A stretch of 64,000 nt of DNA from Paramecium tetraurelia (lineage: Eukaryota; Ciliophora; Oligohymenophorea; Peniculida; Parameciidae), in assembly GCF_000165425.1 (NCBI RefSeq), contig NW_001799021.1:14419-78418 (forward strand). Direction: 5' to 3'. The first letter of the stretch is position 1; each line of letters starts with the position of its first letter. Below, in pieces: positions 5,494 to 63,059 of this stretch. The position numbers and the translations under genes are program-made. A model generated the notes under the pieces. The model had not been told where the DNA came from, did not search any database, and worked only from the letters and a program-made list of their open reading frames with translations.

Positions 5494-5510
5494 TTTATAA
5501 AATTAAATAT
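5494..5510. promoter_or_regulatory. 17-bp divergent intergenic segment
   Basis: Only 17 AT-rich bases separate the start codon of the minus-strand Yip1-family gene (5493) from that of the plus-strand Alba-like gene (5511). Both transcripts must initiate here or inside the coding regions. Confidence 0.5.
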
Positions 5511-6359
5511 ATGATTAAAGTAAAGAGTTCAGGCAATAAGGAAGCAGATACAGCTAAGTACTTCCTAGAAGCCATGTTGTAATTAAGAGATTGCTTCAAT
5601 GAATCGAAATCAATAAGCATTGAAGCTCAGGGTTAGGACATCTGTGTGGCAACTTGTGTGTTAGAATTATTAAAGAATTAATTTCCTAATAATAAAAATT
5701 CGATAAATACAAGTGGCAGTATCAAAGACGTCTAAGACTGTGATGTGAGCGGATTAAAAATAGACTTTTAAGTATTAGATTTTGGAAAGGATGTGTACAA
5801 TCCAATGAGTTATGTTGAAAAGTATCTGCAATAATTGATGGAATATGAAAAATCATAGAAACGAAATAATAAAGAAGATACAAAACCAAGATAAAATTAA
5901 TAATAGCAATAATAATAGTAATAACAATAACAATAGTAATAACATTAGTAATAACAATAGTAATAATAATAGCAATAATAATAACAATAACAATAGTAAT
6001 AATAATAGCAATAATAATAACAATAACAATAGTAATAACAATAAAAGAAGCAAAAAGAAGTCTAAGTAGAATATGTATAGAAAGTGGATTCAAATACATA
6101 AGATGATATTTACAACAAATGGAGTAAACCAAAGAATAAAAACAAATAGAGAATACCTAAAAATTACTATGGGAATGATGAAGACTTGGAGACAGATGGC
6201 TTGCACGGATTTGCCGAAGCTTTTGATTAAAAATAGGGGAGAAATAGAAATGAGAAGAATAGAAATAGAAGAAGTTAGAATAAGCAAGAAGAAGTAATTT
6301 ATTAGGAATAGAATTTTATAAGAGGAAATATAAAATACAGAGGAGGATTAAAAAATTGA
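5511..6359 (+). CDS. Alba-like nucleic-acid-binding protein with polyQ tract
   Basis: A single 849-nt exon, 282 aa, TGA at 6357-6359. Residues 1-60 (IKVKSSGNKEADTAKYFLEA, then SISIEAQGQDICVATCVLEL) resemble the Alba fold, a small dimeric DNA/RNA-binding domain. The match is by eye. An acidic linker follows, then a run of 49 codons (5898-6044) encoding almost pure glutamine via TAA, TAG and CAA. The C-terminus is basic (RGRNRNEKNRNRR), suiting RNA binding. The convergent arrestin-fold gene ends 54 bp downstream. Confidence 0.75.
5898..6044 (+). repeat. polyglutamine-coding trinucleotide tract with longer internal duplication
   Basis: Forty-nine in-frame codons drawn from TAA, TAG and CAA with one CAT, encoding Q48H1. 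A longer unit of about 33 nt is repeated twice within it (around 5966-6035), so the tract grew partly by unit duplication. Confidence 0.8.
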
Positions 6360-6413
6360 TAAATAATAATAATCGTATAAAATAATATATAGTTTAAACT
6401 CTGCTAAAAGTAT

Positions 6414-7370
6414 TCAATCATTTTCATTATAAATTACAATTTCATTAGACATTACGTAAGTTTGTTAGTCCTCCCACATAAATTCTAACTGAATTACATA
6501 GTTAACTTTGTACAGTCTTCCTGGGTAGGTGCATGCATCATTAAAAGATTAGGAAATTGCAATATCAATGTCTAGATTTCTCTTCTCACTGTGCATGTTA
6601 TCCAATCTTTGTTAGATCATCGTTTGTGGAGGTAACTAATAATTGTTACTAAACTTACTCGTTTATATTTGGTATCATTTTTAAATAGTAAATCAATTAT
6701 TTACAAAATCGTAATCTGATTCTTAACTAAAGCAAATTGGGATCTAGTGTTGTCAACAAGCAATTTGCCTTTTAAATGTTCACCTATTCGATAAGCATTC
6801 TTCTCCAAACTAGAGATAGCCAACTAAATCCATACTTGAACTAAAGAATCGGAGCGAAACCTGCGAATTTAGGTTCATAATTGAGTGAAATTGGTTTGAT
6901 ATCGTATCTGTTCTTTTTTGTTTTGACTACTTGAATCTGTCTGGTATTTGGTACAATGCTGCTGCTCAATGAAGTGGCTGAAGAACTTTTCTGCGGTTTT
7001 AAGATATAAATACAGCTAAGAAACATTCTAAGTATACGATTGTGGAGAGTGTTTAATCGGAGATTATAGAGTAGTAATTCTGATAAATGGGTTCCCATTG
7101 AATGCGCTAATCAAAAGGAATGTGCAGTTGGGCTTCTCCGTTTAGTTTTCGTCGCATGAGGTTGATATCGAGAAATTGGTTGGATACTGTGAATCCTTTT
7201 GTGGTAATTTGCTCGATCCCAATCAGATTGACATATAAATGATGAGTGTTATCCATAGTCGGATTGTTGATTAAGACTGAACCACTATACTAGCCATGTT
7301 AGTAATCAGCTTGGGTGACTTCGAAGTTTATTTCTCCTTGAAAATGAGTAATCGAGTGGCATAATCCCAT
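6414..7370 (-). CDS. arrestin-fold domain protein
   Basis: Introns at 6991-7013, 6841-6860 and 6636-6658 give 296 aa. The N-terminal half has the beta-sandwich pattern of arrestins (FQGEINFEVTQADY, YSGSVLINNPT, LHIPFDQRIQWEP). The C-terminal half contains GEHLKGKLLVDNTRSQFALV, a very typical arrestin C-domain strand pair, and ends with LYKVNYVIQLEF. Arrestin-fold proteins act as adaptors for receptors and trafficking cargo (alpha-arrestin, Vps26-related). No PPxY motif was noticed. The second intron is only 20 nt. The exact subfamily is not determined. Confidence 0.75.
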
Positions 7371-7491
7371 TATATAATATTTATTAATTAAATTACAAAT
7401 AGATTAATTAAAAGAACATTTTTTAGAATAAATTATTATCTCAACTTCCAAAAATTGTACGTCATAGAACAATAATATTAAAATTACAATC

Positions 7492-8722
7492 ATGTTAAAC
7501 AGCAAAATCAAGATTTTCAATGATGACTCCCTTCTTTTCAGTAGTTATCAATATTATACGGTTCCATTTTTATATACAATGGCCATAATATTGATTTCCT
7601 ACTTCGAAAATGCTTGGATAGCCATTTGGATCGTCTATACTCTAATTCCATTTTTGGATGAATTCTTCTCATTAGATCTTCGTAATCCAAGCAAAGATGA
7701 ATAGAAGTAACTTACATATTAGATTATTACTAGTAAACTAGAATCAGAGATGAGATTCAAGCTTCCATTGTATGTATGCGTCATCTTCGATTGGATAAGT
7801 CTGATTTGGATGATCAATTTCCTTCTAAACAATGAGATCCAGATATTCAATAAACTGGGTATTATCTTTTTGTGTGGCAATTTGGCTGCATCCAACATCA
7901 ACATCGCTCATGAATTGTTTCATAAAGATAATCTGCTGGATAAGCTATTGGGAACTATTACATTGGCAAGAAACTTGTACATCCACTTTGCAATAGAGCA
8001 TATCCATGGTCATCACAGAAATGTTGCTACTCCCAAAGATCCAGCAACTTCATTGAAAGGACAAAAGATATGGAACTTCTTGCCCTAGACCATAATTGGT
8101 TCATATGTGTCTGCTTGGAATTTTGAAGCAGATCTTATGCTCAAAAAATATGGATCAGTTATTAGAGTCTAAAATAGAATGATATGGTAATAATTAATAA
8201 TAGTGTAGGTATACAATATCTTATTTTATTATTCCATGCATTATCTATTATTACTTTGGAATCTTCGGATGTGCTTACTTCTTAGGCACTGTAATCAACA
8301 GTGTAGTGTACTTGGAGACCATTAATTATGTGGAGCATTATGGTTTGAGCCGAAAAGAAATACAACCGGGAAAATATGAGAAAGTAGACATTAGACATAG
8401 TTGGAATGCTCCACACAGATTATCCAATTATCTCCTCTTTAAATTGCAAAGACATTCAGACCATCACGAAAATCCATACAAATCCTACCAGACACTCTGT
8501 TCCTATGAAGAAAGCCCCCAATTACCACATGGATATACTGTGTGTATTCTATTGGCATGGGTACCAAATTTATGGTTTGAAATTATGGATTTGTAATTAA
8601 AGAATTGGGAACATCATAAAAAGAATGTGACCTCAGACCAAGTCAAACAGAAAATGCTTGATTTCATATTCAAAATTGGCATGGTCACTACAACATTGGC
8701 AACTGCTTCAATTGCATTATGA
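7492..8722 (+). CDS. AlkB-type membrane di-iron monooxygenase (alkane/fatty-acid hydroxylase-like)
   Basis: One 22-nt intron (8187-8208) gives 402 aa. All three histidine clusters of the AlkB/XylM integral-membrane non-heme di-iron hydroxylases are present: HELFHK near residue 140, EHIHGHHRNVATPKDPA near 168, and LQRHSDHHENP near 311, plus NYVEHYGL and RHSWNAPHRLSNYLLFKLQ. In bacteria this family hydroxylates terminal methyl groups of alkanes or aromatics with rubredoxin as electron donor. Several hydrophobic segments precede and separate the clusters, as expected for an ER or endomembrane enzyme. Sequence order and spacing are complete, so activity is likely; the substrate is unknown. The next gene starts 9 bp after the stop. 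AlkB-type enzymes are mainly bacterial, so transfer is possible. Confidence 0.9.
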
Positions 8723-8731
8723 ATTATTATT

Positions 8732-9849
8732 ATGATAATATTCCTAATTACAAGTGTTTTCGCATCACATATCTATCCCATCGCCTAAAACCCAAAAACC
8801 TTCGCTTTTCAATTGACCTATCAATAAGGGTCCTTGACACTTGATTTGAATTCTTAATTGACCTTTATGAAACTTAAAGGAGAGGAAGTCAAATGCAATT
8901 CCTCTCCATTTGGAGATTAGATCGAATGTTCCTCATGCACTCCAAATTGTGTCATTGGAGATGGTAATTTGATGCAAAGTGATGCCATCCTCATCAACGT
9001 GTTATAAGAAGAACAAACAGAAAAGATGCTATACGTTTCCACGGATCAAGAAGAAATATTAGGCTTGGGATAATAGAGAGGATGTATATAATAGATTCTA
9101 TATTTGTAGCCTCAAAAACTCCGTAGAATCCATTTCTTTCCAATATTTTTCATATCTGTCTTGGTTATGATAAAGGATTCATTTCAAAAGAATTCAAGAA
9201 TCCATACAAAAAACAAATAAATTACAAATCAAATTCCTCCTCTAAATATTAAGTAGATCTCAAACAAATCAAAATACAAAATCAAACAATTGTCAATCTA
9301 ACTGGAAAAGTTACATATGTCGATAGCAGAGATCCATACATTTTATTGCCTGAAGAAAATTATCAAAAAATCATCACGTATTTTTCCAAATTTCAAGTCG
9401 TTGAAGAATCTCATACTCTCATCGTGAAGAATCAATCTCTAAAATTACCTGATATTGAATTTATATTTGATGATGATGATGAAAAAATCATTATGGAACC
9501 AGAAGCATACATCTTGAAACTTTCAAATGACACTCATATCTTAAGATTCAATAGATCCAAATTAAATCGAATTGAACTAGGATTACCATTCTTGGCTTAA
9601 AAACTTATTACAATTGATTAAAATACAGAGAAATTCTATTTTTCTGATTTTAATTGTTAGGATTAATTCCAATAAATACAACTTGAAATAGATTACTTTA
9701 AACAAATACTCCTTCCAACATTATTGATATGTCTTGTATTCTATTGCATTTTGACTCAAAAAGCTAAAACTTATAAACAATCCAAAGCCAATGAAAGCTA
9801 TGAATTGACTAAATTAAAACAAGAAATTGAAGAGGAAGAGGAGATTTGA
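8732..9849 (+). CDS. membrane-anchored aspartic-protease-like protein, probably inactive
   Basis: One 26-nt intron (9084-9109). The start is chosen because MIIFLITSVFASHI makes a signal peptide. The ectodomain shows pepsin-family features: EEILGLGQQRG, FLSNIFHICLGYDKGFI, and VDSRDPYILLPEENYQKI where active enzymes have a second catalytic D-S/T-G-T. The glycine of that motif is replaced by Arg, and no first-lobe DTG was seen. A single C-terminal membrane helix (ILLPTLLICLVFYCILT) and a short acidic tail end the protein (about 363 aa). It is probably a non-catalytic surface or secretory-pathway protein of the A1 fold. A fragment of another A1 protease lies at the right edge of the window. Confidence 0.7.
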
Positions 9850-10013
9850 ATTAATTTATTTTTAACCTTATTTGTATTGCTATTTCTCTATATTTCAAAT
9901 AATTGATTTATTTTTATGCAAAAATTCAAGATTTTCTTAATTTGAGTTTCATTGAAATTTCATAGTCTATTTATTAATAAGATGAATAATTGTACATTTA
10001 AATATATTTATAA

Positions 10014-11328
10014 ATGAAAATTATCTCAATAATGGCGAATTTAGTCACTAGCCTAATAATATACGATACAAATGTTTTCAAAGGTTTTGATTACGATTTT
10101 AATCAACATTTTCCTTGTTCAAATACCTAGATAACAAGTTAAATCTTCTTCTCAGACTCATTTCCTGAAATACCTAAAATAATCCTTTCCCTTGAAAAAA
10201 TTGATATCTGGATTATAAACTCAGGGTTTATTTTAGAGATCACAGACATTTAGCTTACATGTAAGTATTTAGATTAGTTAAGATTTCAATGTTAAGATTT
10301 CATGTCCAAATGAATTATATTTTGCTGTAAGATTTAAATGGTATGCTATTTGTGGAGGCGGTCTTCAAGTAATTAACTATATCAGCTCTGCTTCCATTGT
10401 CAATCAAACTTTTCCTCATTAATTGAGTAATGCGAAATATGGATTTGTGAGTTTAACAGGTTTATTATTCAAGGGATCAATTGATTTTCTACTTTAAGTA
10501 AGGCATTTATATAATAACATTCTCAGATAAGTGAACTGACAAACTCTTCTATTTCGGTTGAGATTAACCAAGTAGATGGAAAATTCCCTAATTTACTAAA
10601 AATAGGTTATTAAGTTGTCATAACATAACATGAGTTAATCAATCTAGGATTACAATATGCTCCTCAGATTTTTACAAGTTAACCAATCTAAAACATATGC
10701 AGTTAATGGTTTATTTTTAACATTTAAGGTCTTAATTATGAAAACACAGATAACTTAAGACTAAATCTAACTTATAATAATAATGCTGATATTATATCTT
10801 ATTAGGTTGGATAATGTATTAATTTATCAAATTTTAGGGGTTGGATAATATACTGAAAGTTATCATTCTTAGCTATGGTTATTTTATTAAAATACTTACT
10901 TTAGTTGCACTATGATAAAAAATAAAAGAAAATTAATCTCAAATATCAATGATTTACCCGAAAAGAAAATTGTTTTTGTTGATTTGAATCTCCAATATAT
11001 TAATAAAGGATAATACGAATTAATTTTAAATAAAACGCTTTCCTATCTGTAAATAGAAGTAGCTATGAAAAGCTTTTAGGGAAAACTAATTCAAAGTTCA
11101 ATTCATTCATAAGATAACTGCAATCCATCATAAATTCAAGTTATTAAATATAAAAATGAAAAAATCTTCAACTTGATAACTTTCTACCTAGCATTTACTT
11201 CAACAACCTATCAATAATAAAAATTTAAGATTATTATCACAACCGGGAGTATTGAATTAGTTCAAGTACTTTTAAATTGCGCGTAAACTGAGAAGGCAAT
11301 TCTGAAATTTGAATATATAGACGTCTGA
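10014..11328 (+). CDS. H-type-lectin-like beta-sandwich protein
   Basis: Introns at 10261-10282 (AAG acceptor), 10498-10526 and 10816-10837 give 413 aa. The pattern F....F...P.I...L..ID..........ITDIQLT.F.V.I.C, followed by VRFKWYAICG, matches the H-type lectin domain (discoidin/snail agglutinin type) that is abundant in ciliates. The region after residue 250 has further beta-rich segments (KKIVFVDLNLQYINKGQYEL) that may be a second carbohydrate-binding-like module. No signal peptide is obvious at the first ATG, so secretion is uncertain. Lectin assignment is by pattern only. Confidence 0.6.
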
Positions 11329-11913
11329 TTTAAGCAATAAAAAATTGCATTTTATTTAAATTTAAAAAATTAAATTATTAAGCATTTGTGTATATGTACC
11401 AATTATGATTTATAACAATTCTAATAATTTTAGTTTTTATTTGAATAAATATTACTTAAATTCTACAACGACTTAGTATCACGAATGAAAAACATGTAAA
11501 TTAATTTTATCCTTCCTTACAAAAAAATGAAACATTTATCTATAGCCCTATAATCAATTTTACATCAATAATTGATATTCTTAATATAAATTAGTTGCCT
11601 AGATCGTGACGAGTAAAAGTCTTGGATTATTAAAAAGAGTTATAAACAATAAAACTACCTTTTCAATTCTTATGATTTATCTTAAAAAATTCCAAATATG
11701 TTATAAAACATTCACTTGATAATCTCCTAATGGTCTTTAGATATTTTATATTTAAATAGAAAAACTACCAATTTTAATGAAAGTGTTAGAATGTTAAATT
11801 TAAATGTAAATTATTATCGTTATATAGTAAGTCATTTTAACTCATAAAGATGAATTTTCAGAATATGAATGATGAAATAATTAATATTATTATTAGTTCT
11901 AATAAAACAATAT
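11329..11913. other. convergent spacer, no gene seen
   Basis: About 585 bp of AT-rich sequence between the stops of two convergent genes. No coding signal or strong hairpin was noticed. Confidence 0.45.
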
Positions 11914-13211
11914 TCATAAACTGGATAAATTTTAAAAATGAAAACGGGGAGTCAAAATATATCTTGAACTTGCTTCGAAATCATTCATAAAGTCAGTTTT
12001 GAGAGTTCTAATCATTTTAATGAGTAAGATGTTATTTTTAATGTCCTCGTCATGTGTATGCTACTATTAATGGATCAGATTACCAAAGTTGATTCATGTG
12101 CATCAATGTATTCTTCATAGATTTAATGAATATTCTCTTGATTTTCTAATTCAGCTTATATTTCTGCTTAATGATCTTGAATCTATTATTCCATATCTGC
12201 GATCATCTATCCTAATTCTGAAATCTGTTCGTTTAATTTCTCAGTCTTTTCATCAATATGTTCCAACAAGCGTTCATGCAATTCTATTCGTTATTATTCA
12301 GCATTAAAGAGAACGATGTTAGTGTCTGCTAAGTTTTGTTCCCTGAGAATAAGAGAAATGTATTTACATATTTGCAAGCATGTCAATAACATAAGTGACA
12401 TGTTCTAGATTTCCAGTCTATTCTGGAATTTGGGCGAATGACTCTTTAGTTGATAAAGACAAGTACCAATGATTTAACTAAAGGGATTTTATTCTCCCAA
12501 TTACTCCTTAGCCTATGATCGTACCTATACGAATTCTTATCGTATGTCCTCGTAACTAACCTCTAATTCATTGTCCTGCTTAGCAAATTTGGTTTAAGGT
12601 GCAAGATCTGGCATTTTGGGTATCAATTACCCAATCAATCCTTTGGATCTGCGAACGATGCCGCTGGACATGGTTATTTCGCTTCTCCTTCTTTCGAACA
12701 TGGCAACCTAAATATTGGTTGATATTATTGAACTTCGTTTTCTCGAATTTGGACCAATTCAGAAACGGTATTTTCAGTCACTTCTAGAATAGCTTACTTT
12801 TCATCGATAATCTGTGCAAACTTATTGGTGTAATTGGTTAATAGAGCTATTTTATTTTCCAATGAAGTAACTCTATATTTGGAATCCTAGAGCATTCTTT
12901 GGGTTTCCTCAATGTTTTGAAGTTCTATCAAAAGTAATGATGTGTAATGAACCTGTGTCACATTGTTCTTGGAATTCATCCGAAGTAAGTGAGGCAACCT
13001 TGGCTTCCATGCTATTAAGATAAATTAAGAATTATGTTTGATCATGTCCTAGATAATCTCATTGACTAGTACCTTTTCTGAGAAAGGCCCTCACATCTTT
13101 GATCAGATGCTGGCCAACCTGACCTTCACTTGCGATGTTGTCGATATCATCCTTATTTTAACCGACTTAATAAGCAGCTGCTAAGTGTAAAATAAAATGT
13201 ATAAAAATCAT
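11914..13211 (-). CDS. secreted coiled-coil protein, trichocyst-matrix-protein-like
   Basis: Six introns (24, 28, 26, 23, 25 and 20 nt) join into 383 aa. A hydrophobic N-terminus (MIFIHFILHLAAAYQVGQ) looks like a signal peptide. Two long heptad-rich regions follow: about residues 75-135 (CDTELQNIEETQRMLQDSKY onward) and 230-330 (QQRIELHERLLEHIDEKTEK onward), separated by a basic segment. This layout of signal peptide and paired coiled coils resembles Paramecium trichocyst matrix proteins, which crystallise in secretory granules and are exocytosed. The family match is structural, not by a diagnostic motif. The start codon is only 9 bp from that of the divergent PsuG gene. Confidence 0.6.
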
Positions 13212-13220
13212 TAATTATTT
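13212..13220. promoter_or_regulatory. 9-bp divergent intergenic segment
   Basis: Only nine bases lie between the start codons of the minus-strand coiled-coil gene (13211) and the plus-strand PsuG gene (13221). Core promoter elements must overlap coding sequence, or one start is misassigned. Confidence 0.4.
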
Positions 13221-14161
13221 ATGGAAAAATTATTATAGATTTCATAAGAAGTTAGAGAAGCACTCGAGAAGGGTCAAGCAGTAGTAGCTTTGGAGTCAAC
13301 CATAATCACACATGGAATGGAATATCCCACAAATGTTTAGACAGCCTTGGGAGTGGAGGAGGAAATCAGAAACAAAGGAGCTATTCCTGCTACGATCATT
13401 GTCACACAGGGAATCCTTAGAGTTGGATTAAAGTAAGAGGAGATCGAAGAGATTGGAAAGAATAAACACCACTACTAGAAATGTTCAAGGAGAGACCTAG
13501 CATAAATAATAGCATAAAAAGGATATGGAAGTACAACTGTGGCAGCAACCATGATGATTGCTCATATGGCTGGAATCAAAGTATTTGTTACTGGAGGAAT
13601 TGGAGGAGTTCATAGAGGAGCTGAACACACTTTTGATATCTCTGCAGATTTGGTTGAATTGGGATAAACTCCAGTTGCTGTTGTTTGTGCTGGTGCCAAG
13701 TCCATTTTAGACATTCCAAAAACCTTAGAGTATTTGGAAACCTAAGGAGTTCCTGTCGTTGGATACAAAACTAAACATTTCCCCAACTTTTTCACTCCAG
13801 ATTCAGGTTTGTTCTGCAGTACATCTGTGGATTCCAGTCAGGAGGCCAGTGAGTTAATTAAAGCACAATTTGAGTTGTTGAAGCTTAAGAATGGAATCCT
13901 CTTTTGTGTGCCAGTGCCTTAAGATTAAGCAGCAGATGGTTAGATTGTACAGTAGGCCATTGATAAAGTATTTGTTTACATTCAAATTAGGCACTCAAAG
14001 AGTTGGATGAAAAGAATGTCAATGGTGCTTTGGTTACTCCATTTCTATTGAAGAGAGTCAATGAAATTACTGATGGGATGAGTTCAAAATCTAATGTTGC
14101 TTTAATTAGAAATAATGCAAGAGTAGGAGCTGAGATTGCTATTTAATTGTGTTAAAAATGA
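13221..14161 (+). CDS. psuG: pseudouridine-5'-phosphate glycosidase
   Basis: One 23-nt intron (13968-13990) gives 305 aa, the usual PsuG length. The enzyme reversibly splits pseudouridine 5'-phosphate into uracil and ribose 5-phosphate, the second step of pseudouridine degradation. Conserved blocks are intact: [11 protein letters not shown] (catalytic Glu), KCSRRDL (Lys that forms the ribose adduct), [20 protein letters not shown] (Asp), [24 protein letters not shown] and [13 protein letters not shown]. No mitochondrial presequence is obvious. The partner pseudouridine kinase is not next to it and not fused, unlike in many bacteria and some eukaryotes. High identity to the bacterial pattern is notable. 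Confidence 0.93.
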
Positions 14162-14173
14162 TTAATAAATAAT

Positions 14174-25600: not shown

Positions 25601-26970
25601 TCACCTTAAGTACTCTGATCTCTACTTCTCCTTGAATTCCCTCAAGATCTCAGCTGCCTCCTTACTGATAAAGGTTTCTGTGTCATTAAACTAAGAAAAC
25701 TTCATTGTGGGTTATTTATAACTATCTCTTTCATTTAATTTATTCAATATCGAATCTATCTGTTGCGTTTCTGCAGAATCGCAAATCCCCTTCGATTTCA
25801 ATATCCCACTCAACAACTAAATTGCTTCGATTGCCAATTGCAGTTTTTCATCAGTGCTCATTTTGTAGGTCTAAGCAGGTGTTTAAGACAACCTATTAAT
25901 TTGTTGCTAAGAAGGAGTTTGTGGCTACTGGGGTATTGCCGTATTAGAGTTGGATTACTTATTTGTTGTATTAATGAACAATTGAGGTTACGACGATGAC
26001 TTTAGTTAACTTCCATAATTCTATTGTCTTTCTACAGAAGTAACTTACTTATCCAATTACTATAAATTATTTTGTTATTGTTATGATTATTGTTACGATT
26101 GTGAATTATTCTGTTACAATACATCCAATATTAAGTTGGCTGAATCTCTTACTTGTTTTATCTAATATAATTCAATTATAATAAATACCTTATTTGATTT
26201 TAATTCATACATTAATTCCTTAAAGTACGAATGTTCCTGAATTTTCTCTTTTTATAGCACCACCAGGGAGTACAATATGTCTAACGCCATCTTCTTCACT
26301 TGCCATTATTGATTTGACAGCAACTATTGCAAATGAGGGATGATTTCATCGGCAAAAATACTAGGATTAATGAACTGCTTTACTCTGATTATTCTTCCAC
26401 ACTCAAGATGATTGCAGCCATTCCTTCCAGGATCTCCACTTTCCCATTTTGTTGATTCAACAATGAGATGAATTTCCGAAAGAGGAACAAGGCATTTTGT
26501 TCTAGGATTTCGAAGGACAAGAATTAGACTACTCGTGTCAAACAGAGGGCGTGTTACGCATTCTAATTTAGATGGTTCATGAGTGGTTTCAGAATGCTAT
26601 TGAGAACGTCTCCGTCGAAACAACAGAGCTTAACTATTTTCCCTATAATTTCAGCCACTTGGGCACACACGCAACTCATCGATTCGAAGTCCTTGATTCT
26701 CTTCAATAGATGGGTGAAGATCATGGGTAATTGAGGACTCAAGTTTTCATTGGCACATTCAGCCAATAATCCGAACAATTTCAATTGTTCTTTGACCACA
26801 CTAATTTTATCCGATTTGGCTTCTATGAGTACTTAAACTATCATCTGGTATTGATCGCATTCGAGAAATATCTACCTGAATTGCGGACTTGCAATGGGTT
26901 TTTACAATAAGTATTAAAGTTGTTATTTGTAATTTTTCATTCGTTATAATTTTAATTAAAAAGCCTCCAT
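25601..26970 (-). CDS. HEAT/TOG-like alpha-solenoid protein
   Basis: Introns of 23 and 27 nt give 439 aa. Residues 60-290 form paired helices of HEAT type (LKLFGLLAECANENLSPQLP, MSCVCAQVAEIIGKIVKL, ALDILYSLVVL). A Gln/Asn/Ser-rich linker follows, then a C-terminal helical piece (LQLAIEAIQLLSGILKSKGI). Such solenoids bind tubulin, nuclear transport factors or scaffolds; the class here is not determined. The 27-nt intron is a multiple of three without TGA, so its retention would not break the frame. Confidence 0.65.
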
Positions 26971-27015
26971 AATTTTATCAATATATTATAGCCCACTTCA
27001 GCATAATTATATTTC
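26971..27015. promoter_or_regulatory. 45-bp divergent intergenic segment
   Basis: Start codons of the HEAT protein (26970, minus) and the charged low-complexity protein (27016, plus) are 45 bp apart, so this short AT-rich segment must hold both core promoters. Confidence 0.45.
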
Positions 27016-28488
27016 ATGAATTTCTTAAACAAAATATTTGCAAGTGCCCACAATAGAGGCTCTTTTTAAATTGAGGATGTCTCCGGTTCCGAAGATGATT
27101 AGGATGAAATCCCAGAACACCAAGAGATTCCATAATTCAAGAAATAAAGCATCCAACAATTATCGAGTTACAATTCTCGGAAAAAACCATAACCTAAAAT
27201 TGGTTAGGCCGATTTCTTGGCTAGATACGATGAAAATTTTGATGATGTATTCGGAGACAAACCCGCCCCAATAGATTTCCCGAAGAGTAGGAAAAGGAGG
27301 CAAGAGGAGGAGGAAGAGGATGAAAATGACAACGAAAGGAAATCATCTAAGAAAAAGACCTAAAGTAGGGAGAGGAAATAATAATAATCAAAGGACTAAA
27401 AAGATTAAACAAAAGATTTAAAAGAATAATAAAAAGATAATAAAAAAACAACAAAGGAATTTAGAGAGACAATCGATTACAAGGAATTTATCGACACTAA
27501 GGAATTTAAGGACTTTAAGGACTCCTATGAATTTAAAGAACCTCTTGAACCAAAAATATTAAAAGAACCAAAAATAAGATTACCAAAATTTCCAAAATAA
27601 AGAAAAAGGATTGCTAATAATCATCTTTCAACATTAAGATCGAATTCCGATGGACGAGACAGTGTAAGTAATAAGGATAGGGAATCTATATAACAAAATA
27701 ACAAGTATAATCCTAATGAAATTGCATTACCTTAAACAGCATTGCCAAAATCTGAAAAGAAATAAGACAAGTAGAAAACAATGTTTTTTACGTTTGGAAT
27801 GAATGATGATGATAGTGAAAAGGAAATAAAGAATAGAATCAATAATTTATTTTACGATCAAAAGGAAAAGAAAGATCAGAATGAATAACTTAAAAATGGT
27901 AACAACAATAACAATAACAATAACAATAATAATAATAATAACAATAATAATATCAATAATAATAATAATAACAATAATAATAATCATTCAAAAGAAAAGA
28001 AAGAGCCAGAAAAGAAACAGAAGAATGAGGAAAAGAAATAGAAGAATGAGGAAAAGAAGTAGAAGAATGAGGAAAAGAACGATAGAAATGAGAAGAAATA
28101 AAGAAAAGAGAAAAAAGATAAAGAAAAAAAAACTATTAATTACTTGAACGTATTTGATGAGATTAAGAATACATAAAAGAATGTCAGTAGTAAATAAAAC
28201 AGTGAATAAAGAGAAACAAGGAAGATGAACAGTGAATAAAGAGAAAAGAAGAGAGATAAGAAGAGAGAATCGAAGTAAGCTGGTAAGAAGAATGAAAAGG
28301 CAAACTCGAAATCTCCATCTCCTGAGTTGAAACTTATACAATATGAAACTCAAAAGAAAGTAAAAAGAAGCCAAAAAAGAGTTATTGAGGATTTGGAAAT
28401 GCTAAATGTAGATGAATTATCATTAAATCCCAATATTGTAGAATGCAAACCCAATTTATATTTAGATTACACACCTGTATATGATTGA
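27016..28488 (+). CDS. highly charged low-complexity protein with poly-Asn tract
   Basis: A single exon, 490 aa, TGA at 28486-28488. An N-terminal region (residues 1-90) is of normal complexity and includes QADFLARYDENFDDVFGDKP, which may be a short interaction motif. The remainder is Lys/Glu/Gln-rich with DYKEFIDTKEFKDFKDSYEF repeats, a poly-Asn run (27901-27984), three copies of KNEEKKQ-type heptads, and basic clusters suggesting a nuclear or nucleolar protein. The last 40 residues (VIEDLEMLNVDELSLNPNIV) are again ordered. No family recognised. Confidence 0.7.
27901..27984 (+). repeat. poly-asparagine-coding AAT/AAC tract
   Basis: Twenty-eight in-frame AAT and AAC codons with one ATC. The same kind of AAY/TAR microsatellite in another frame would encode polyQ, as at 5898-6044. 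Confidence 0.8.
28018..28080 (+). repeat. three tandem 21-nt coding repeats
   Basis: Three near-identical 21-nt units encode KNEEK-type heptads. The first unit begins with CAG and the others with TAG, both glutamine in this code. Confidence 0.8.
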
Positions 28489-41692: not shown

Positions 41693-43253
41693 TCAGCTTA
41701 TGAATATAACTATTAAGGTAATATCATCAACTACTGAATCATCTTCCTATGTTAATCATATAATTGTTTACTAAAGTCCACATCTTATACGATATCTGCA
41801 TTAATTCATCGCAAGCACCCTCCAAATCCCCTTAAATGTAATGTTTGCCTACAATATCAACAACACTTTGATTATCAATGAATTCCCAGACTCCATCACT
41901 CCCTAAAATAATGAACTTATCTTGAGGAGTCAATTGGTATTCAAAAATCTCTACAAATATAGAAAATACATTTAATTACCAGGAACACTAGACACACCTA
42001 CTGATTGTGCAATCTAATCTCCAAGACTTCGACTCATAGCCAATCCTGGGTAATTTCCATCTCTAACCCAAACTCGAGCTGGTCCAATCGAATTACCTAA
42101 TGGATTAATAAATGATACCTTGATCATCATAGTAGGTGTCTACTCTCCCGCCATGCATGTGGATCCTATTCATTTCTTTTTCAAGACAGGGTTTGTGATC
42201 GATTGATAGAGGGAATGGTTTGAATTTTTGATTGTTTCCCAATTTGCCAATGATTGCTCTACTGTCTCCGACATTGGAGCAGATTAGATGTCCTCCATCT
42301 TGGATGATGATGGAATTCATGGTGGTGCCACTGAATTGAGTGTCAAATGGTTGTTAATTGATTAGGTTGGCTAGGAGGGAGATAGATTTGACGATGGCTT
42401 GTCTGGGATGTTATTTTAATAGATGATCTCTTTTGAGTATTTTAGTGAAATGATCTCTAACATATTATGAAACAAAATGCCCATTTTAGCCATGACCATC
42501 ACACACAGAGAATAGATGCATGTCAGAGACGATGTTGGTTTCGCAAATGAAAGTGTCCTAATTAGTTTTATTGGGATTGGATGCCAATTGACCTTGTCTT
42601 GTTCTGGTGCTGAAGGAGAGTTTGAATTGTAGGAAATCACGATTGTAATGCAAAGATTGAGCAGATCTATATTTGAGATCGCTCTTTGGTTCTGATCGCA
42701 TGTTGTGAGTACTTGAACTCTAGGCTCTGCGCACTTATTGGTCGATGATGGAATTGTTGAGCTGTAAAAATATGAATATAGATTCTGTTACAAAATTATG
42801 CCATAAATTTCTTTTATCCACATTGGTCTTCTACTTTTGATTGGCATATTGTTTGATCAGATTCTAAGTGGATTCCACTGCTGTCTATCTCTTCGGTTAC
42901 AGTGATTCATAGGGTCTGGATATTTCTGCTGTTTAAGGAACTCAAAATACTTTTTTAAGAGTTCTTGGCATCAATGGTAGCAGATCTGGGCTATCTCAAC
43001 TAAGAGAAATTGGTCTTGAGCTATTTGGCACTGGATTTCTGTGTCTGTTCAATGCGTAGATTCTTGATAAAGTAATTGTTGGTGATTTGGGAAAGGTTTT
43101 CCTTCCTCATGAAAATGCTAACAATGAGTACAATTTAGCAATGGTTTTAACATCACTATTCAAGTATGCTGCATATGACGTCTGTGATTTGCTACCTATC
43201 GCCTGTTTTGGTTTCTTTACATTTGCTTTGTAAATATCAACTGTTCTTTTCAT
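41693..43253 (-). CDS. PP2C-type (PPM) Ser/Thr protein phosphatase
   Basis: Six introns (26, 22, 30, 22, 29 and 25 nt) give 468 aa. A basic, Ser-rich N-terminal extension of about 190 residues precedes the catalytic domain. PPM motifs are complete: LFSVCDGHGQNGHFVS (metal-binding Asp), SGTTMNSIIIQDGGHLICSN with VGDSRAI, DHKPCLEKEMNRI, GGRV, PGLAMSRSLGD, FIILGSDGVWEFI, and a terminal DDITLIVIFI. It should be active with Mn/Mg. The first intron ends in GAG. The PDE gene lies divergently, only 10 bp away. Confidence 0.93.
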
Positions 43254-43263
43254 TAATTAATAA
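43254..43263. promoter_or_regulatory. 10-bp divergent intergenic segment
   Basis: Ten bases separate the start codons of the PP2C gene (43253, minus) and the phosphodiesterase gene (43264, plus). Promoter elements must overlap the first codons of one or both genes, unless a downstream ATG is used. Confidence 0.4.
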
Positions 43264-47814: not shown

Positions 47815-47835
47815 TATTTATTAAAATTTAACGTA

Positions 47836-53600: not shown

Positions 53601-54718
53601 GTAAGTATAGAGGGATCTGAAGCAATAAATAGAGATAGCTGAGAAGGAGTTGAAGAAATCTTGTAAGACAAAAATAAGGGTGAAAAAGATCTTGAAAATA
53701 TGTAGAGACAACAAATAGTAAAATGAGGAGTATATTAGATATTTAAATTATCTGACTAGAAACTTCACTAAGTTAATTAATTTTGAATAATTGGAAATTA
53801 AAAAGAGTCAAGAAAATATATAATAAGCAAAGCGACAATTTGATGAATTTTTAAAAGTCTATCGTTAAAAGCGATAACATCAGACAACATTATTGCTTCA
53901 AATCAGAAATAGTTTAAGAGAAAAACAACATTTAGATAAAATATTTTAATTAAGTGATTTACAAATAACCGAATAAGCTCATGGTTCAATCTAAAAATTG
54001 AGGAAAAGATTAAATAAAAAGGATGATGACACCAAGAACAAGAAAAACAAAGAATCTTAAGAAAAGGAACTCAAATTACAAAGAGAAAAGTTAATGATCC
54101 TAGAACAACAATATCGAAAGATAAAAGGAGTTTTTGATATTAAGAATAGTGATTATCATTTGAATAAGGAATTCGTAGATTTTATGGCATCGAAAGAAAG
54201 AAAAAGCGAATATGAAATTAAATTGTCAGAGTGTCAATAGAAATTAAGTGAAGTCTTGGATCTAAATACAAAATTGAATGAATAAGCTAAAACATATGAG
54301 AATGCTTATTCATCTCATAATTTCAATTAAAAGGAAGTCAAAAAAGACGGTACAAGTTATATCTTATAGCATTAGAGCAATCTTAAGAGAAAAAGCAAAT
54401 TAACAATATTTAAATGTAAGAATTATAACTCAAGAAACTGATGGTTTTGGAAGCTCGATTAACCAGTTCATTAGAATTGATCGGAAAGAAGTGTGGAGTT
54501 AAAGATGAAGATTAGGTAATGCAAATTTAGATTATTATCAGATTTCTATTATATTAGATTAGAGGAAACAACACATTATAAAAAATGAGGGATAGACAAA
54601 TTATTAGAAGATTTTAGAGCAGTAGTATTAAATAGAGCCGCTTTTAAAATAGCAAGCACCATTCTATTTTCCAAACAGATACACAAATAATAATAGCAGT
54701 AGTAACAGTGAAATTTGA
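50631..54718 (+). CDS. STAND-class P-loop NTPase with long coiled-coil C-terminus (apparent frameshift)
   Basis: About eight introns (25, 25, 22, 24, 25, 16 or 28, 26 and 26 nt) and one apparent one-base deletion in A5 at 51961-51965 give about 1,300 aa. Residues 45-330 form a NACHT/NPHP3-like NTPase: DRYFLEIEQWLEEDK, TPLVLEADDGIGKKTLLVKW (Walker A, with Lys where Ser/Thr is usual), VILVFEGIDNF (Walker B), NPQNLLDIFIQLSYKVRNQP. A helical middle (SLEENGFDPVLEYNKAVEGF, RFLKEFGDFETRN) follows. The last 430 residues are coiled coil. Such NTPases nucleate signalling or ciliary scaffolds. Without the extra base the frame runs into TGA shortly after IFKK. Confidence 0.7.
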
Positions 54719-55077
54719 CATAATTTAATTATATAAATATATAGAAAATAAAGTATAAAAATAGTAATTATTTAATATTTATCGATCTTATATTGTGATA
54801 ATCTATTATTCCTTTCTTATTAATTGATTTATTGTAGGAGATCAAGTATGAGTATACGTGCAGAATAAAATTATTTATGATTTTCATTTTAAATAATTGT
54901 ATCTTGAGTAACTATTTAATTATCATCGAAGTTATATTGAAAGTAAAGTGAATTATAAGCTCATGGTGTATTTCAATGAAAAGTTTAGAGTTTAAAATTA
55001 AATTTATAAATAAGAGCTTTTTGGCAATTTAATTGTGAATTAAATAAAAGCATAATTTGAGTTCAAACTGACATTTA
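54719..55077. other. convergent spacer, no gene seen
   Basis: About 360 bp, AT-rich, between convergent stops. Confidence 0.4.
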
Positions 55078-55653
55078 TCAATAGGAGATATTCAAGGGAG
55101 AGTTGAAATTGAAAAATGATTGGAAACACTCCACTTATAGGAGATAAGAAGTTTGGTCAGTGATCAGTTAAGGACGTTGTCGTAATAAAAGATATTTAAG
55201 AAAGTTTATTTAAATAATTTTACTCATATGATAAGATATCATCAAAGCATGTCTAAGAATTTTTAGTTTAAGTTTTTGCTGGAATTTCTCTCTTACTTAG
55301 ACCTTAGTGGACTCTGAAGTAGAGTGCCAGATCTCATATCGATAATAATTGTATCGGATATTTAAGTCGATTTCTTAAATAGTGAATAAATCAATTACCA
55401 ATTCCTTGGTTTCCTTCAAATCACCAGAAGTTGTGAATTTAATGGGTATTTTGGAATCAATTTAAGTGATGGAAGGTATTTACTGAGGGATCTCGTCAAG
55501 GAAATCCATTTTGTCGATATCTCCCAAAATTGAGATTTTTAAGGGTTCCATAGTCAGCCCTCTTTGACTAAGGACAATAGAAGGAACTTTAATCTTGTGT
55601 CTCAACTCATTTGCTTTTAGAGTAATAGTAGGTCTATCTTAACAACAGCCCAT
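55078..55653 (-). CDS. small MGCC protein, probably lipid-anchored, unknown
   Basis: A single frame of 191 aa beginning MGCCQDRP. Gly2 followed by two Cys is a classic site for N-myristoylation plus palmitoylation, placing the protein on membranes such as the ciliary or plasma membrane. The body alternates hydrophobic and charged residues (MEPLKISILGDIDKMDFLDE, IPIKFTTSGDLKETKELVID), suggesting a beta-rich domain. The last 60 residues are less convincing and a 3' intron could shorten it. No family recognised. Confidence 0.5.
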
Positions 55654-56086
55654 TATTTACGATAGTGTTGAGAAATTGATTTTAAATTAATAAAATCCAT
55701 AATACGAGAGTTTATATCGTTGATATACCAACATATATGACGACATTATATGAGAGAGATTGCTTCATAGTATTCAGAAGAATTTATTGTTTAAGGTTCT
55801 AATAGTCAACTGTTTTGTAGAATGGTATTGAGTTTAGCCTATATAAATAAAACTTCAGCTGTTGAATGGGGATTGTTAGTACTATCGTAAGGTTTTCTGT
55901 TCTCGAGTGTTAGATTGGATTGTTAGACAAAAAGGAGTCAGACAAAAAGGAATCATTCGATTGGGGAGAGATTAAGAAGTCTTTATGATTTAAATGTAGT
56001 TCATTTGAACATCTTTGCACAACAAACGATTAAATAATTTAATTTAAGATAAATTCAAAGCTCTTACACAATCTTTATTCTTTGTT
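55654..56086. other. spacer with an open frame downstream of VPS8
   Basis: About 430 bp between two minus-strand genes. A minus frame in register with VPS8 stays open for about 159 codons beyond its TGA (to 55607-55609), including a Ser/Asp-rich piece and a hydrophobic segment, but it has no suitable start. A run this long is not rare by chance in AT-rich DNA with one stop codon. Confidence 0.35.
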
Positions 56087-59000
56087 TCACCATTCCGTCC
56101 AATTTAAGGCAGACTAGATAATGCAAATAATCTGTACCTCTCTTATATACAATTTGTTAAAGTCATCTTATTTCAGTTTCTTTATTGCTTTTTCTCTTTG
56201 TTCTATTTTGTCATATTGCACAACAACTTGTTTTGATTCAGGCACCACATTGGCTTGTCTGTGTAAGTATTTATCGAAATCAAACTTCGACTTTTTCAAA
56301 CTAGCCTAGACAATCAGATGGGATACTAGTGCGAATTTAAAAGATGTAAGTACTGTATTTTTCATTGCTGCCCAAACAGATAAAGCATTCCTGGAACACT
56401 TTTTGATTCTTCAATTTCAAACTATTGAAACTCTTTTGACTATTGCCATGGAGTTCGATGTAGCATTCTTAATGGTAACTGTGTCCACATTAAAATGCCA
56501 CTGCTTTTGTACACTTAGTGATTCGATCATTGCATTCTCCGCAGTATCGATCGACACAGACTCCTTGATTCATCTATTGAAAGAGTTTTTTGCTTAATCC
56601 CTTGTAAGTGATATCAGTCTATTGCATGGCAATGTTATAGGAAGGCAATTCAAAAGCGAACTTTTCCTAGATGGATTTGTTGGTCTTGAAAAACACTCTG
56701 AGTGGAATAGAACCATAGAGTTGATTCATTTTCTAGATAATCATACAAAGTTTACATCCAAGAGTCTGTCCAATTCTATGCATTTGGACATGGCTAAGAA
56801 CACTTCGGATACAATATCTCCGTGCAATTTTCTGAGGGCTTCAGGGACTTTAAGATCAGTCAATTGTTCCAGTTTATGCTATTTGAAAAAAGAGTCTAAA
56901 AATTAAAACCAATATCCATCGTCTTCAATTTTCGAGCAGAGATCAATGATGTAATTCAACTTCTCAAAGATCTCTTCTTAATCAGTTTCTGAGACTGTCT
57001 TTGATCTTGCGAACGATTTGTGACAATCCTTCAATCTATTGATAAACAGCAGAGTCAACATATCCAGAGCCTTCTAGATGGCTCCATTCTTCTGAAGCAG
57101 GTAGGCAGCAGCATTGTACACCTTATACTTCTCACAGATGGCCAAGGCGTCGTCTAGAGGGAAGTCTCCATTCTGGACATCTTTCAATACCTCTTTGGGT
57201 GCTCTTTAACACAGGAGATCAAGATACAGTAATCTAATTGAATCGGAGGCCTTTTCATTTTTGATGTATTGTTTGAGGTAATGCAATTGGTTTTATGGTG
57301 TTTTTTCTAATTTTTGAATGATTTGCATTTACAATTTGAGATCGTGGAAGTACTCCTTGAAAATTCGATTCGTATACTATTGACTAATGTTCATCAAGGT
57401 ATCGCAATTCTCGATTATAAACTCTTACAACTACATCAGCAATTAAGCATTAGAGTAAATCAACAGTCTTTCAATGACTTCAAATACATTTCTCTTCATC
57501 ATACTGTTCTGCATCTGAAAGTAATTAGAAATGCAGGTGATATAATCGTTTTGTTTGTATATGAGAAAGGTACGGAATTCAGGAAATGGGATGCTTCCAT
57601 CGAAAACAACGGAGACGTCATTCAATTGACTAGTGTCATACAGGTGAATTAAGTAGGCATTCTTATTGACTTCGTAAGACTCTAAGTAGATGGGATCAGT
57701 ATCTTGACTGTTGAAGTTATATTGTTTCAAGGTTTCGAAATAGGATGGAGACAGGAGATCTTGGACTAGTTTCTCTTTGAATTGTTTTTTGAATTACAAT
57801 GGGAATTGCATTAGTAATTCAGAGTAGAATAGCAAGAAATGATTAAGTTATTCAGCAAGGGATATTTAATGATATTGTTCAGTCTTGTCATTATAAACTA
57901 TCTGATAGTGTTCCTGAGCTTTAAGGTCCTCCCTGGTGTTCTCTATGGAACTAAGCATCGATTTCAGGATGTCAGGGACGTGATCGATGATCTCAAACTT
58001 AATCCCAGGGAGAGTGGCTGATTTGATATTGGTATAGATGTGATGCTGCATGAATTACATAAGCAATTGAAGTGATAGTCGAATGTCAATGAGTATGAAT
58101 TGTTTTAAATTCTCTGTATTAAAGATGAATGAAACCAATCCCCTTAACATATCGAAATAGATATTGTGTGGCACCCTCTCTCCCAGGATATTAATACCCT
58201 TCACACACATACGAAAGTAGGCCAAAATACTGTATCCTAGTTTAATTCTGAACTTCCGCAACTTCTCCTTCTCAATGTGGCATGACTCCTTCTATTCCAA
58301 TTACCATTTATTTTCCCAAAGATCCATCAGTTTCATTAATCCAGTGATGAAGTCTCCCTACTTTGTGCACAGATAAATCATGGCCTTGTACAAGTGATAA
58401 TCCATGCAGACCTTGATTAGAAGAGTAGGTTCTTGTTGATGTAAATCTAATTGCAGTATGAGTTATTGTATCATCTCCTTGTCATTTTAATAAAAATTGA
58501 CGTAGTCCACAAAGAACGATTCAGGAATCACAGCAATTTATTTGTTCTTAATGAAGGGATCCAAACAAGTGAAATACAACTTCATCTATTATATGTCCTT
58601 GAAGAAGTCCTTCAGCACAACCAAAGCATAAGTCATGCTATCAACTCTGAGCAAGAACTCTATTGTCTTTTTTATTTTATTCTCCTTCTCTTATTAAGAT
58701 AATGGGATATCCAATGGTTTCAGTGCAAACATTATATGAGTAAAAGCAATCTTCTGGAACATCTAACTCATTTATTCTTAACGTGCTTATAGAGAGGAAG
58801 CTATCTCACTCAGTATTTTAATTTATCCTTGGTAGATCAGCATTCCTTAATGCATGGCTTTCTCCCATTGATTCTTCTCAATCAAATCCTCTAGATATTC
58901 ATTCCAAGTTTGGAGTCTCTCTATTAAAATGTTATTCTTCCTCAATGATACAATTCCATTCTCGTATATTTATACCTGACAAGGTATACTTGGACCTTCA

Positions 59001-60461
59001 TATGAAACACAAATCTCAGCAACCTATGGTTCGACATCTTCCTTTGACAGCATTCTTGTTTTCGATTCCAATATGACAATCCCATCATCTTGCTTAGCAA
59101 ATTAAAACTATGTAGTATGAATTAAAGCAACCCAATTAGAATCCGAAAATGTATAAATGATATTATTTGTTAAAAAGGAACTCTTAATTATATTCCCTTT
59201 CTCTTTCTCTAACTTATAAACAGCACTGATTAAATATTTAAATTATATTACCCTTCTACAATTTCTAGTTCATCCTCTATATTCATACATTTGACTAAAT
59301 GAAATATGTCACCCCATCTTATACACAACAACTTGGCATTCTGATATGACTTTTCGAAGTACCCCTCTCCCCACGACAATTCACCACTTTCATTACTATC
59401 ATTTTAAGGGACATCAATTGAGAAAGTATGTCTTTTCAGAGTATACACTATCTCACATTTCAAAGACCCTAAATTTTGATGCGTATGGCAATTACCTTTA
59501 TAGAATTTAAGAATTTCAACGCGATTAGAATATAATACAGCAGCAATCACTACTTATTAAATATTTTGATTGAGTTACTGGGTCATAGCTTCAGGCATCA
59601 ACTTAATATCCAGAGCAAACTTCGTCTATTAGCCCTCTGTGTCACTGGAGTGCTTGGCTGATGGATCTGTATAATCAGTGACTTCCTCTTCTTTTTTGAA
59701 TATGCTATCCCACCAGGAGGACTGCTTTTATTTTGGCTATTGGGGGTTGCGTTTGATGTGATAGATTTTGCCATTCTTATAGATCTTGTCTTTGGAATGA
59801 GTGACGATGTATTTGTCCATGACAGTCATCACAGTGAAGGAATGTTTGTAGATGACTCCGTGTTCATCCAGAGATAGTGCTTCGATAGTGGAGGATGGTA
59901 TGAATAGGACTTGCATCACTCTGCCTGAATGCAATCTGGATTCATGATGCAAGCGTTCCCATTTCCGACCTACCTCGTATAATTGAATGTCTCCTCTCTC
60001 AAAACCAACCAACATATATTTCTCCCAACATTAGATTGCCAATACAGAGCCATATCTTGTTTGTCGTTCACCTGCATTGAGTATGGCTTGGATGGACTCC
60101 ACTCTTCCATTCACCACTTCAATGCAGATGATCACAGAATGTTGAGTGCCAATCATCAGATACCTCTTTTGACGATGCATATAGAAGCAAAGTTGAGTTG
60201 GTTGTCCATAACTACCATACAATTCATTTGCTTATTGTGTAAACCCATAAATAGGATTCACTTGGAAACAATCTGGTTATTGTTGCACTTTTTCTTAAAA
60301 GAAGGTGTTTCTGTCTCTGGACTCTAAGGAGAACTTTTTTAACACTAACAATGGTTGATTACCTTAAGAGATTGGTAGATTGGTTCAAGTTGATCGAGAA
60401 TATTGAAGTGTGTAAATTGGTGATATCTACTCCGCAAAACTTCTTAATTTAGATAATACAT
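56087..60461 (-). CDS. VPS8-like CORVET tethering subunit
   Basis: A large multi-intron gene of roughly 1,400 codons. VPS8 is the Rab5-binding subunit of the CORVET complex that tethers early endosomes. The N-terminal beta-propeller carries the family pattern: RYLMIGTQHSVIICIEV, LNAGERQTRYGSVLAIQC, KYMLVGFERGDIQLYEVG, GRVMQVLFIPSSTIEALSLD. The alpha-solenoid follows (WNEYLEDLIEKNQWEKAMHQ, CMDYHLYKAMIYLCTKQGDF). Near the C-terminus a CFICLGSNEKY piece keeps only the first Cys pair of the usual RING. The 5' exon is joined by a 26-nt intron (GTTAG...TTAG). Exact splice sites in the middle were not all worked out. Confidence 0.82.
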
Positions 60462-60995
60462 AAAATTATTATTCTGAAAATCAATAATAAACAAACCAAT
60501 AATCAAGTACAATCATAATAACAAACACAACTAATCATGATAGGGTTCATTCATTCTCTCTTGAAAAACTATATTGAACTGGGTTAGAATTAGAATTAAT
60601 AATTGGATCAATCTGTATTTCAGCGAAATAATCAATTAATCTCCATGTATTCTTCTATTATTCATATGCAATTGGAAATTATTAATTCGTTCTCCTTCCA
60701 TAACAGGACTACAGTATTTATTTGTTTCCTTTATCTAATATAAAATTTAGAAATGATTAGATATTAATAGTTTATTGTAAATTGCACTAAGATTGATTTG
60801 ATATGGTATCCAAATGTCATTTGATTGACAATTACAGAAATAGAATTATAATCTGATTACCTATTGAATTTCTTTAATATCAGAGTTTAATAGAGAGTGT
60901 TTACTCAAACCTTCGAATAGTTGAAATCATTGGACGATATCCCTACTTCTCTTCAATCTAAAGAAACACTCGATATTTTATAATAAATAATTTTA
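60462..60995. other. unresolved stretch with possible small minus-strand gene
   Basis: About 530 bp between VPS8 and the next minus-strand gene. A minus frame ending at TGA 60547-60549 reads CYGRRTNQQFPIAYEQQ and WRLIDYFAEIQIDPIINSN, which looks coding, but no start or intron chain could be settled. Possibly a short gene of under 110 codons. Confidence 0.3.
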
Positions 60996-63048
60996 TCACT
61001 TTTTTAGATTAATAGCTTTAATCATAATACTCGATCTCTTAAGAGGAGATCTTTGGGAGTTTTTACGTTGCACTTTACGCGCTGATGCTTTCATTCGCTC
61101 TTGTGGGACTTGCTTGCTCTTATAAAATAATTCAGGATGGAGTAGGGAGAGTTGTCTCACCAATTCAAGGCTTTCTTCTAGTGGCCGATTCAATTGGCTA
61201 CGTAACTCAATGAATTATTTGATCTTAATAATAATTTTAATAATGATACAGTACCACATTCATATCCAAATCCTCAGATTGGATCTCCTATTTGTAGATC
61301 CATCCAGTCCATTATTTGTTCTCAATCATTAGGAAATGTTGAGCTAACATCAATAGCAATTCCAACAGAGTCATTTATGATTTCTAACTATTATACACCT
61401 TTTCATTGAATTCCTCTGAAAATAGTAATTAGAAATAGGGAGATGCATCTTTGATCGTAAAACACTCATTGAGTTGATACTCGTGTTGTTCCTGCAATTC
61501 TTTATAGTATTTGAGTACTTTCTTTAGAGATACAGAACTCAATTAACGATGCTCTCGGATTCCAAAAATGATTGCATACAATTGATTGATGGGTTAATCG
61601 AGATCGCATTCGCTAAGATAAGTCAAAATGGCATTTAGTTTCTCTTCTTCGCCAACCCAATCGATAAAGATCCTACAAACATGATTTAGGAAATCTCCGA
61701 TTTGAGTCAGGTAATCCAAGAAGTTACATAAGAGGGTTGAGTAATCCATTTCTAATTCCTTATTGACTTCAAATGGTATTTGAAAGGGATGGACTTGCAT
61801 AAATATGCCTACAGAGTTCAAGTAATACAGTTGGTAGTTCTCCTCTTGCAATTTGTGACATCCCAATCGAACTTGTGCTTCTTGATGTTTCATCGGAAGA
61901 GGTTGATTCAACTTCTGCTATTTAATTAAAGCACTGCCCAATTCCTTGATGTCCTTTTGGAAGACGAAGGAATGTTGGGCGACCACCTTGTCATATTGTT
62001 TGAACATGCTCTCCAATTCCAAAGCCTTTAAGCCAACTGAGTTCATTCTCTCTTCGGCAATTCTGAGATCACTCATCTATTGGACTGTCACAATGTAATC
62101 TTGAAATTCCTGTTAGACTGACAATAACTGTTATTATAAGTATTCATTCTTACGAATGTATTACGCTTCCATAGCTTTGAATTCCTTATCCATCTAGATC
62201 ATCTAATCTTCAACTTTGATCTTCTGAGCCACAGCCTATTTGAATTGCTCCTTGAACTCTTTGACCTGAGTCTCAATGTAATCGGCACAACTCTTGCCCA
62301 TCCATTGCAATTAGATGTCAATCAAGACGATCCAGAATTTGCAAAAGCCTTCCAAAAATATCCCCAATCTGGTATCATGCTTCAAGGCTTCTCGAACACT
62401 CTGCACCATAGTGTCAGAGACCAGATTCACAGCATTTTAGACAAAGTGCATCTTGAAATTAAGCACAGGTCTGGTCTATTAATGTAGGGGTTCGATTATT
62501 TGTTTGTCCAACTGTTAGAGTGTGTTGAATAGTGTAAAGATGAACTTTTCATCTAAAATGGTCTTGTTTTCACACATCTTGGCTCGTTGAACCTCGTACT
62601 GATTTGAATAGAGCATCATTTTGATGGATTGAGGCAATTCGCTCAAATTTTAAATCAACTATTCATGCTCTCTACAGAGGTAACTGTACTATTCATATTA
62701 AGCACATATTGGAATATTCTCTGTTTCAGATGGTACCCTAATGCGATGTTCTGTTCGACCCTCCCCTATTAAACTGGCCCATCTAGATTTCCGTTCCTCC
62801 TTCTTCAATGATGGACACATTGTTCCTGTGAGGGATCCCTTGGCTCTCTATCTCATGATCTGAGAAATGGTGGCCTTCTAATAAAACATATTGGTTGTTT
62901 GGGTTGGCCAATCATTGCGAGCTGTGTTGGATTACTTCTTGAATACGTCCTTAATGGCCTGGGTGAATTCAGCATCGTTGAACATATCGTCAATCTCACC
63001 CAATGATATTTTAGTTTACTTGTTGCCATTTACCTTGCGTGCACTCAT
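60996..63048 (-). CDS. hypothetical 673-aa helical protein, divergent partner of ARL6
   Basis: One 31-nt intron near the 3' end gives 673 aa, otherwise a single long exon (very unlikely by chance). The chain is helical with a coiled-coil centre at about residues 270-350 (QMIQMDKEFKAMEAQYIRKN). The C-terminus is basic (SARKVQRKNSQRSPLKRSS). Segments such as FLEGFCKFWIVLIDIQLQWM and YSTLLCNFLDYLTQIGDFLN are solenoid-like. No family recognised. Start codons of this gene and the ARL6-like gene are 11 bp apart, so shared control, perhaps with cilium formation, is a reasonable inference. Confidence 0.7.
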
Positions 63049-63059
63049 TAATTATTATA
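63049..63059. promoter_or_regulatory. 11-bp divergent intergenic segment
   Basis: Eleven AT-only or nearly AT-only bases lie between start codons at 63048 (minus) and 63060 (plus). The ARL6 start is fixed because the P-loop begins about ten residues later. Confidence 0.5.

Follow-up and report, generated by a model that had tools for sequence, protein, structure and literature searches.

Head-to-head genes with start codons 9–17 bp apart in a 64-kb stretch of the Paramecium tetraurelia genome and their possible service by one short AT-rich initiation zone

Intergenic regions of Paramecium are short, generally a few dozen base pairs in the passage of a 2023 review cited here (PMC11334263) and "sometimes simply absent" in that of a 2025 review (PMC12716044). 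The Cap-seq study of P. tetraurelia gives, in the relevant passages, a median 5' untranslated region (UTR) of 19 nt, a median Paramecium intron of 25 nt and a mean distance between start codons (ATG to ATG) of 388 nt for P. tetraurelia and 121 nt for P. caudatum (v2 annotation; PMC5485702). A native constitutive bidirectional promoter drives two transgenes in laboratory use of Paramecium, as described in excerpts of two reports (PMC4937312, PMC5852613), and the cited part of the 2025 review states that TFIIA, TFIIB, TFIIE and TFIIF are not detected by sequence similarity in the Paramecium lineage (PMC12716044). Here we describe five divergent gene pairs in a stretch of 64,000 nucleotides (the window; contig NW_001799021.1, positions 14419–78418, C68 in our numbering) of the 69.07-Mb genome of P. 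tetraurelia. The start codons of the two opposite-strand genes lie 9–17 bp apart in four of them and 45 bp apart in the fifth. We consider it fairly probable that each tight pair consists of real head-to-head genes that share a single, very short AT-rich initiation zone.

The gaps of 9–17 bp in four pairs and of 45 bp in one had been claimed from the letters of the window and their open reading frames (the sequence-only reading). A gene finder that was self-trained on 264 kb, i.e. the window and four 50-kb stretches from elsewhere, and that was not supplied with those coordinates, reproduced them to the base. It placed the starts at 5493-/5511+ in pair A (17-bp gap, 5494..5510, all A+T), at 13211-/13221+ in pair B (9 bp, 13212..13220, TAATTATTT), at 43253-/43264+ in pair C (10 bp, 43254..43263, TAATTAATAA), at 63048-/63060+ in pair D (11 bp, 63049..63059, TAATTATTATA) and at 26970-/27016+ in pair E (45 bp, 26971..27015). 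Removal of the start-context term from the model left the gaps of pairs A to D as they were and moved pair E to 26940-/27016+, a gap of 75 bp. The trained gene finder works with genetic code 6 (TAA and TAG read as glutamine) and with introns of 20–32 nt (mode 25), which is consistent with Paramecium.

Nine proteins of the pairs were scanned against Pfam; for four of these the scan covered the first 128, 229 or 250 residues or gave no match. Pair A joins a Yip1-domain protein (PF04893; 4781..5493, minus strand, two introns) to a 282-aa protein with a very long polyglutamine run (5511..6359, plus), whose first 128 residues have no Pfam match and of which the genome search found the window copy only. 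In pair B the minus gene (11914..13211) encodes 382 aa with an N-terminus that is hydrophobic by eye and no Pfam match, and the plus gene (13221..14161) a pseudouridine-5'-phosphate glycosidase (PF04227, Indigoidine_A). Pair C comprises a protein phosphatase 2C (PF00481; 41693..43253, minus) and a 3'5'-cyclic nucleotide phosphodiesterase (PF00233; 43264..46270, plus). The minus gene of pair D (60996..63048) encodes 673 aa without a Pfam match in the first 229, and its plus gene (63060..63615) an Arf-like small GTPase (PF00025). Pair E unites a TORTIFOLIA1-N/HEAT-like protein (PF24714; 25601..26970, minus), of which the first 250 aa were scanned, with a low-complexity charged protein (27016..28488, plus) that was outside the scan. 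A distant relative (28% identity) of the minus gene of pair B occurs on C72 (L049:1147-1161), 13 bp from the start of another divergent gene; by eye, its N-terminus resembles a signal peptide.

The narrow gaps would be an artifact if one true ATG per pair lay downstream of the called one, leaving an intergenic region of the usual size. Chance extra ATGs are possible in a genome of low G+C content, and the gap of pair E indeed grows from 45 to 75 bp once the start model is removed, but the N-termini and the duplicates make such an error in the tight pairs highly improbable. The next in-frame methionine of the eight tight starts is found at residue 85, 22, 60, 33, 169, 24, 22 and 30, thus never before residue 22 and in several cases inside or beyond the matched domain regions. 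Matched domains begin at residue 7 (Arf), 10 (Indigoidine_A) and 50 (Yip1). The plus protein of pair B can be aligned from residue 3 with the solved pseudouridine-5'-phosphate glycosidase 4gij, so that homology supports this start. In pair C the domains begin deep inside the proteins (PP2C at residue 216, PDEase at residue 688); hence the support for its starts comes from its duplicate. Both starts and the frame are retained in the duplicates of pairs C and D. Upstream in-frame ATGs exist for four of the eight starts, namely 13221+ (the nearest 24 nt away), 43264+ (123 nt), 63048- (24 nt) and 63060+ (57 nt), and their use would make the genes overlap rather than move them further apart. The claim that the plus start of pair D is fixed by the nearby P-loop, which we take to be the motif at residues 11–18, holds: the sole upstream in-frame ATG, at 63003, reads AAG in the duplicate. 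The pairs are thus very probably two real opposite-strand protein-coding genes with adjacent 5' ends.

The spacing is retained in duplicated copies of the pairs. Three of the window pairs have a recent duplicate, and the gap length is exact in two of them and within 7 bp in the third. The duplicate of pair C on C205 has a 10-bp gap with all 10 bases identical; that of pair D again has 11 bp, of which 6 are identical and 5 changed; in the duplicate of pair E both partners are present and the gap measures 52 instead of 45 bp. On comparison of the copies, divergent arrangement and spacing are conserved for pairs C, D and E. The genome search found no recent duplicate of either partner of pairs A and B. 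A further example is a 6-bp pair on C2 with the gap CATTAATTAATG, which has an older relative on C108 with 51–53% protein identity and ATGs about 8 bp apart, a distance inferred solely from the coordinates of ungapped-length matches. These begin at 248452 (plus strand, query residue 1) and 248449 (minus strand, query residue 119, which is two codons ahead of the second methionine). A second relative of the C2 minus gene was found on C35, where the plus partner had no match in that search.

In the window as well as on C205, about 20 kb separate pairs C and D, which follow each other in equal order, whereas the C205 duplicate of pair E is inverted with respect to both. Order and orientation indicate that this inversion is a rearrangement within a duplicated block (window 25601–64000 and C205). 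Next to a run of N in C205, the 11-kb contig C145 matches C205 with 99.8% identity over 829 bp. C145 was therefore rejected as another copy of pair D, and both (L035 on C145, L036 on C205) were counted as one locus; it is probably an unplaced piece of the C205 scaffold. The minus gene on C205 is truncated, probably an effect of the run of N.

The frequency of such gaps was assessed in the 264-kb sample, which is non-random in that matches of a trial pattern guided the choice of the four 50-kb stretches, which lie near them; those on C25 and C159 each hold a match, and the trial loci L001–L008 were excluded from every count. Predicted genes with less than 150 bases of coding sequence were left out of the junction counts and those with less than 300 out of the start counts. 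The 41 divergent junctions have a median gap of 234 and a mean of 353 bp; ten gaps are below 38 bp, i.e. under two median leaders, and six measure at most 17 bp. The latter accumulate in the window (4/11 versus 2/30 elsewhere; Fisher p=0.035, a generous value because the window was singled out for these pairs). Without the start model five of the 41 remain, four in the window and one elsewhere, and the 10-bp pair on C159 vanishes. With the window included and junctions with N in the spacer excluded, which reduces the divergent junctions from 41 to 40, gaps of at most 11 bp are found at 5 of 40 divergent junctions and at 1 of the 123 others (p=0.0036); for gaps of at most 17 bp the divergent excess has p=0.027. 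The arrangement had been called compact even for Paramecium. This is borne out for the window relative to the rest of the sample, but similar pairs occur elsewhere in the sample and the passage of the 2025 review already allows for absent intergenic regions (PMC12716044). Most plausibly, such spacing is the lower tail of genome streamlining in Paramecium, not a dedicated regulatory device.

It had further been argued that the two core promoters must overlap each other and the coding sequence, or that a single initiation zone is used. This stands, given that the starts are in all likelihood genuine and that the published median leader of 19 nt cannot fit twice into 9–17 bp (PMC5485702, in the passage cited). 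The leaders of these pairs therefore overlap each other or the coding sequence of the partner, unless they are nearly absent. Start signals in the sample are short-ranged: at isolated starts, enriched hexamers as well as A+T concentrate in about the final 30 bp ahead of the ATG. At 84 isolated starts the A+T content rises at about -30 to -1 before the ATG, and the six tight gaps together consist of A+T in 62 of 63 bases. The initiation zone that we favor would consist of the gap of 9–17 bp and reach a few tens of bases into either coding sequence. From this single open stretch RNA polymerase II would initiate both ways, and the two mRNA leaders, typically of about 20 nt, would overlap in antisense and begin within the first codons of the partner. 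Extra near-start conservation between duplicates was seen in pair C (minus side, 43134–43253; 119/120 bases identical in the first 120 bp versus 378/419 at 480–900) and on the minus side of pair E (26911–26970; 59/60 in the first 60 bp, above the more distant coding sequence).

A serious rival to one AT-rich accessible zone that may drive both genes is a pair of separate unidirectional core promoters, each located wholly in the coding sequence of the partner, in which case the closeness would be neutral streamlining without a shared zone. The duplicate of pair D fits this explanation, as 5 of 11 gap bases changed while the length did not. Moreover, 17 of 77 tandem starts follow the upstream gene at a distance of less than 38 bp, which suggests that promoters in or at neighboring genes are tolerated, and the authors of a Giardia study concluded, in the passage cited, that apparent bidirectionality may reflect nearby unidirectional events (PMC3792122). 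Interleaved promoters are nevertheless rather unlikely, since the signals of isolated genes are concentrated within about 30 bp of the ATG, the partners' coding sequence has no promoter-like A+T shift, and the last 10 bp before the ATG reach 97% A+T at tight starts versus 89% at the rest, which points to the gap itself.

Several observations weigh against the shared zone. No promoter imprint is visible in the coding sequence that flanks the tight gaps, which shows no unusual A+T richness (Mann-Whitney p=0.57); because of this, the A+T content at -30 to -11 is lower for tight starts (0.746) than for the other starts (0.857). Extra near-start conservation between the duplicates is lacking on the minus side of pair D (20/30), different neighbors flank the three older Yip1-like paralogues found for pair A, at gaps of 28, 173 and 160 bp, and the Pfam names of the partners point to no common function. 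The divergent excess also depends on the window and the start model. Once the window is excluded it loses significance: gaps of at most 11 bp occur at 2/29 divergent and 0/90 other junctions (p=0.058), and the excess at 17 bp has p=0.25. Without the start model the respective values are 0.0135 and 0.068 with the window and 0.25 and 1.0 without it.

A different source of two-way transcription would be the palindrome TAATTA beside one ATG, acting as a symmetric initiator for almost leaderless mRNAs. Upstream of starts, no 6-mer is more enriched than TAATTA (3.7-fold). It directly abuts the ATG at 11 of 156 starts versus 0.68 expected (10 of 155 once the start model is removed), which makes it the commonest start context. 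Tight starts carry it more often than others (5/12 versus 6/142, p=0.0004), also when only all-A/T contexts are compared (5/11 versus 6/82, p=0.003). This is, however, a post hoc observation on few pairs. The six TAATTA-ATG starts outside tight pairs belong to four tandem and two wide divergent genes (gaps of 181 and 843 bp), and the hexamer is absent from pair A and the C159 pair and lost in the duplicate of pair D. Genome-wide, the palindrome CATTAATTAATG has 81 sites versus 64 expected from its halves, an expectation that derives from the TAATTA count of the sample (1.26-fold, p=0.024); the reversed control has 27 sites versus 35 expected. One of the three sites inside the sample is a called tight pair. 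With the palindrome barely above expectation, the genome-wide counts were rejected as proof of a palindromic initiator. The pattern CATTAATTA-N(0-11)-ATG matches 741+796 times, where the 81 palindromes enter on both strands, versus 339+292 times for the reversed control, an excess that we do not rely on because the control differs in the end triplet. A two-way TAATTA initiator is thus improbable. The broader proposal that a palindromic TAATTA box abutting the start codon is a complete bidirectional promoter of 6–17 bp, with nearly leaderless or mutually antisense mRNAs and a spacing nearly fixed through genome duplication, is likewise doubtful. If true, it would to our knowledge rank with the smallest bidirectional promoters described for nuclear genes.

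The tight pairs narrowly limit the DNA that Paramecium core promoters need outside coding sequence, namely 6–17 bp for two genes, and the preserved spacings provide ready loci for mapping initiation in this lineage. Among the matches listed, mainly from non-subscription literature, no title or abstract opening announces head-to-head Paramecium starts less than 20 bp apart or TAATTA as a Paramecium initiator. The mean divergent gap of the sample (353 bp) is near the mean of 388 nt in the published P. tetraurelia passage (PMC5485702). Relative to known Paramecium intergenic regions, the gaps described here (6–17 bp) lie below one median leader, a tail for which the published passages give means only (PMC5485702; PMC12716044; PMC4937312). 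The closest parallel outside the ciliates is Giardia, for which the cited passages describe very short 5' UTRs, an AT-rich and somewhat symmetric start-site consensus, and some cases in which a single nucleotide between neighboring genes is the origin of transcription both ways; start-site symmetry did not predict bidirectionality there (PMC3792122). Giardia differs in belonging to another lineage and in having mapped transcription start sites, whereas the Paramecium pairs are known from sequence (PMC3792122, same passages). Measured against these systems, the tight pairs look ordinary in kind and extreme in degree, an expression of known compactness rather than of a new mechanism.

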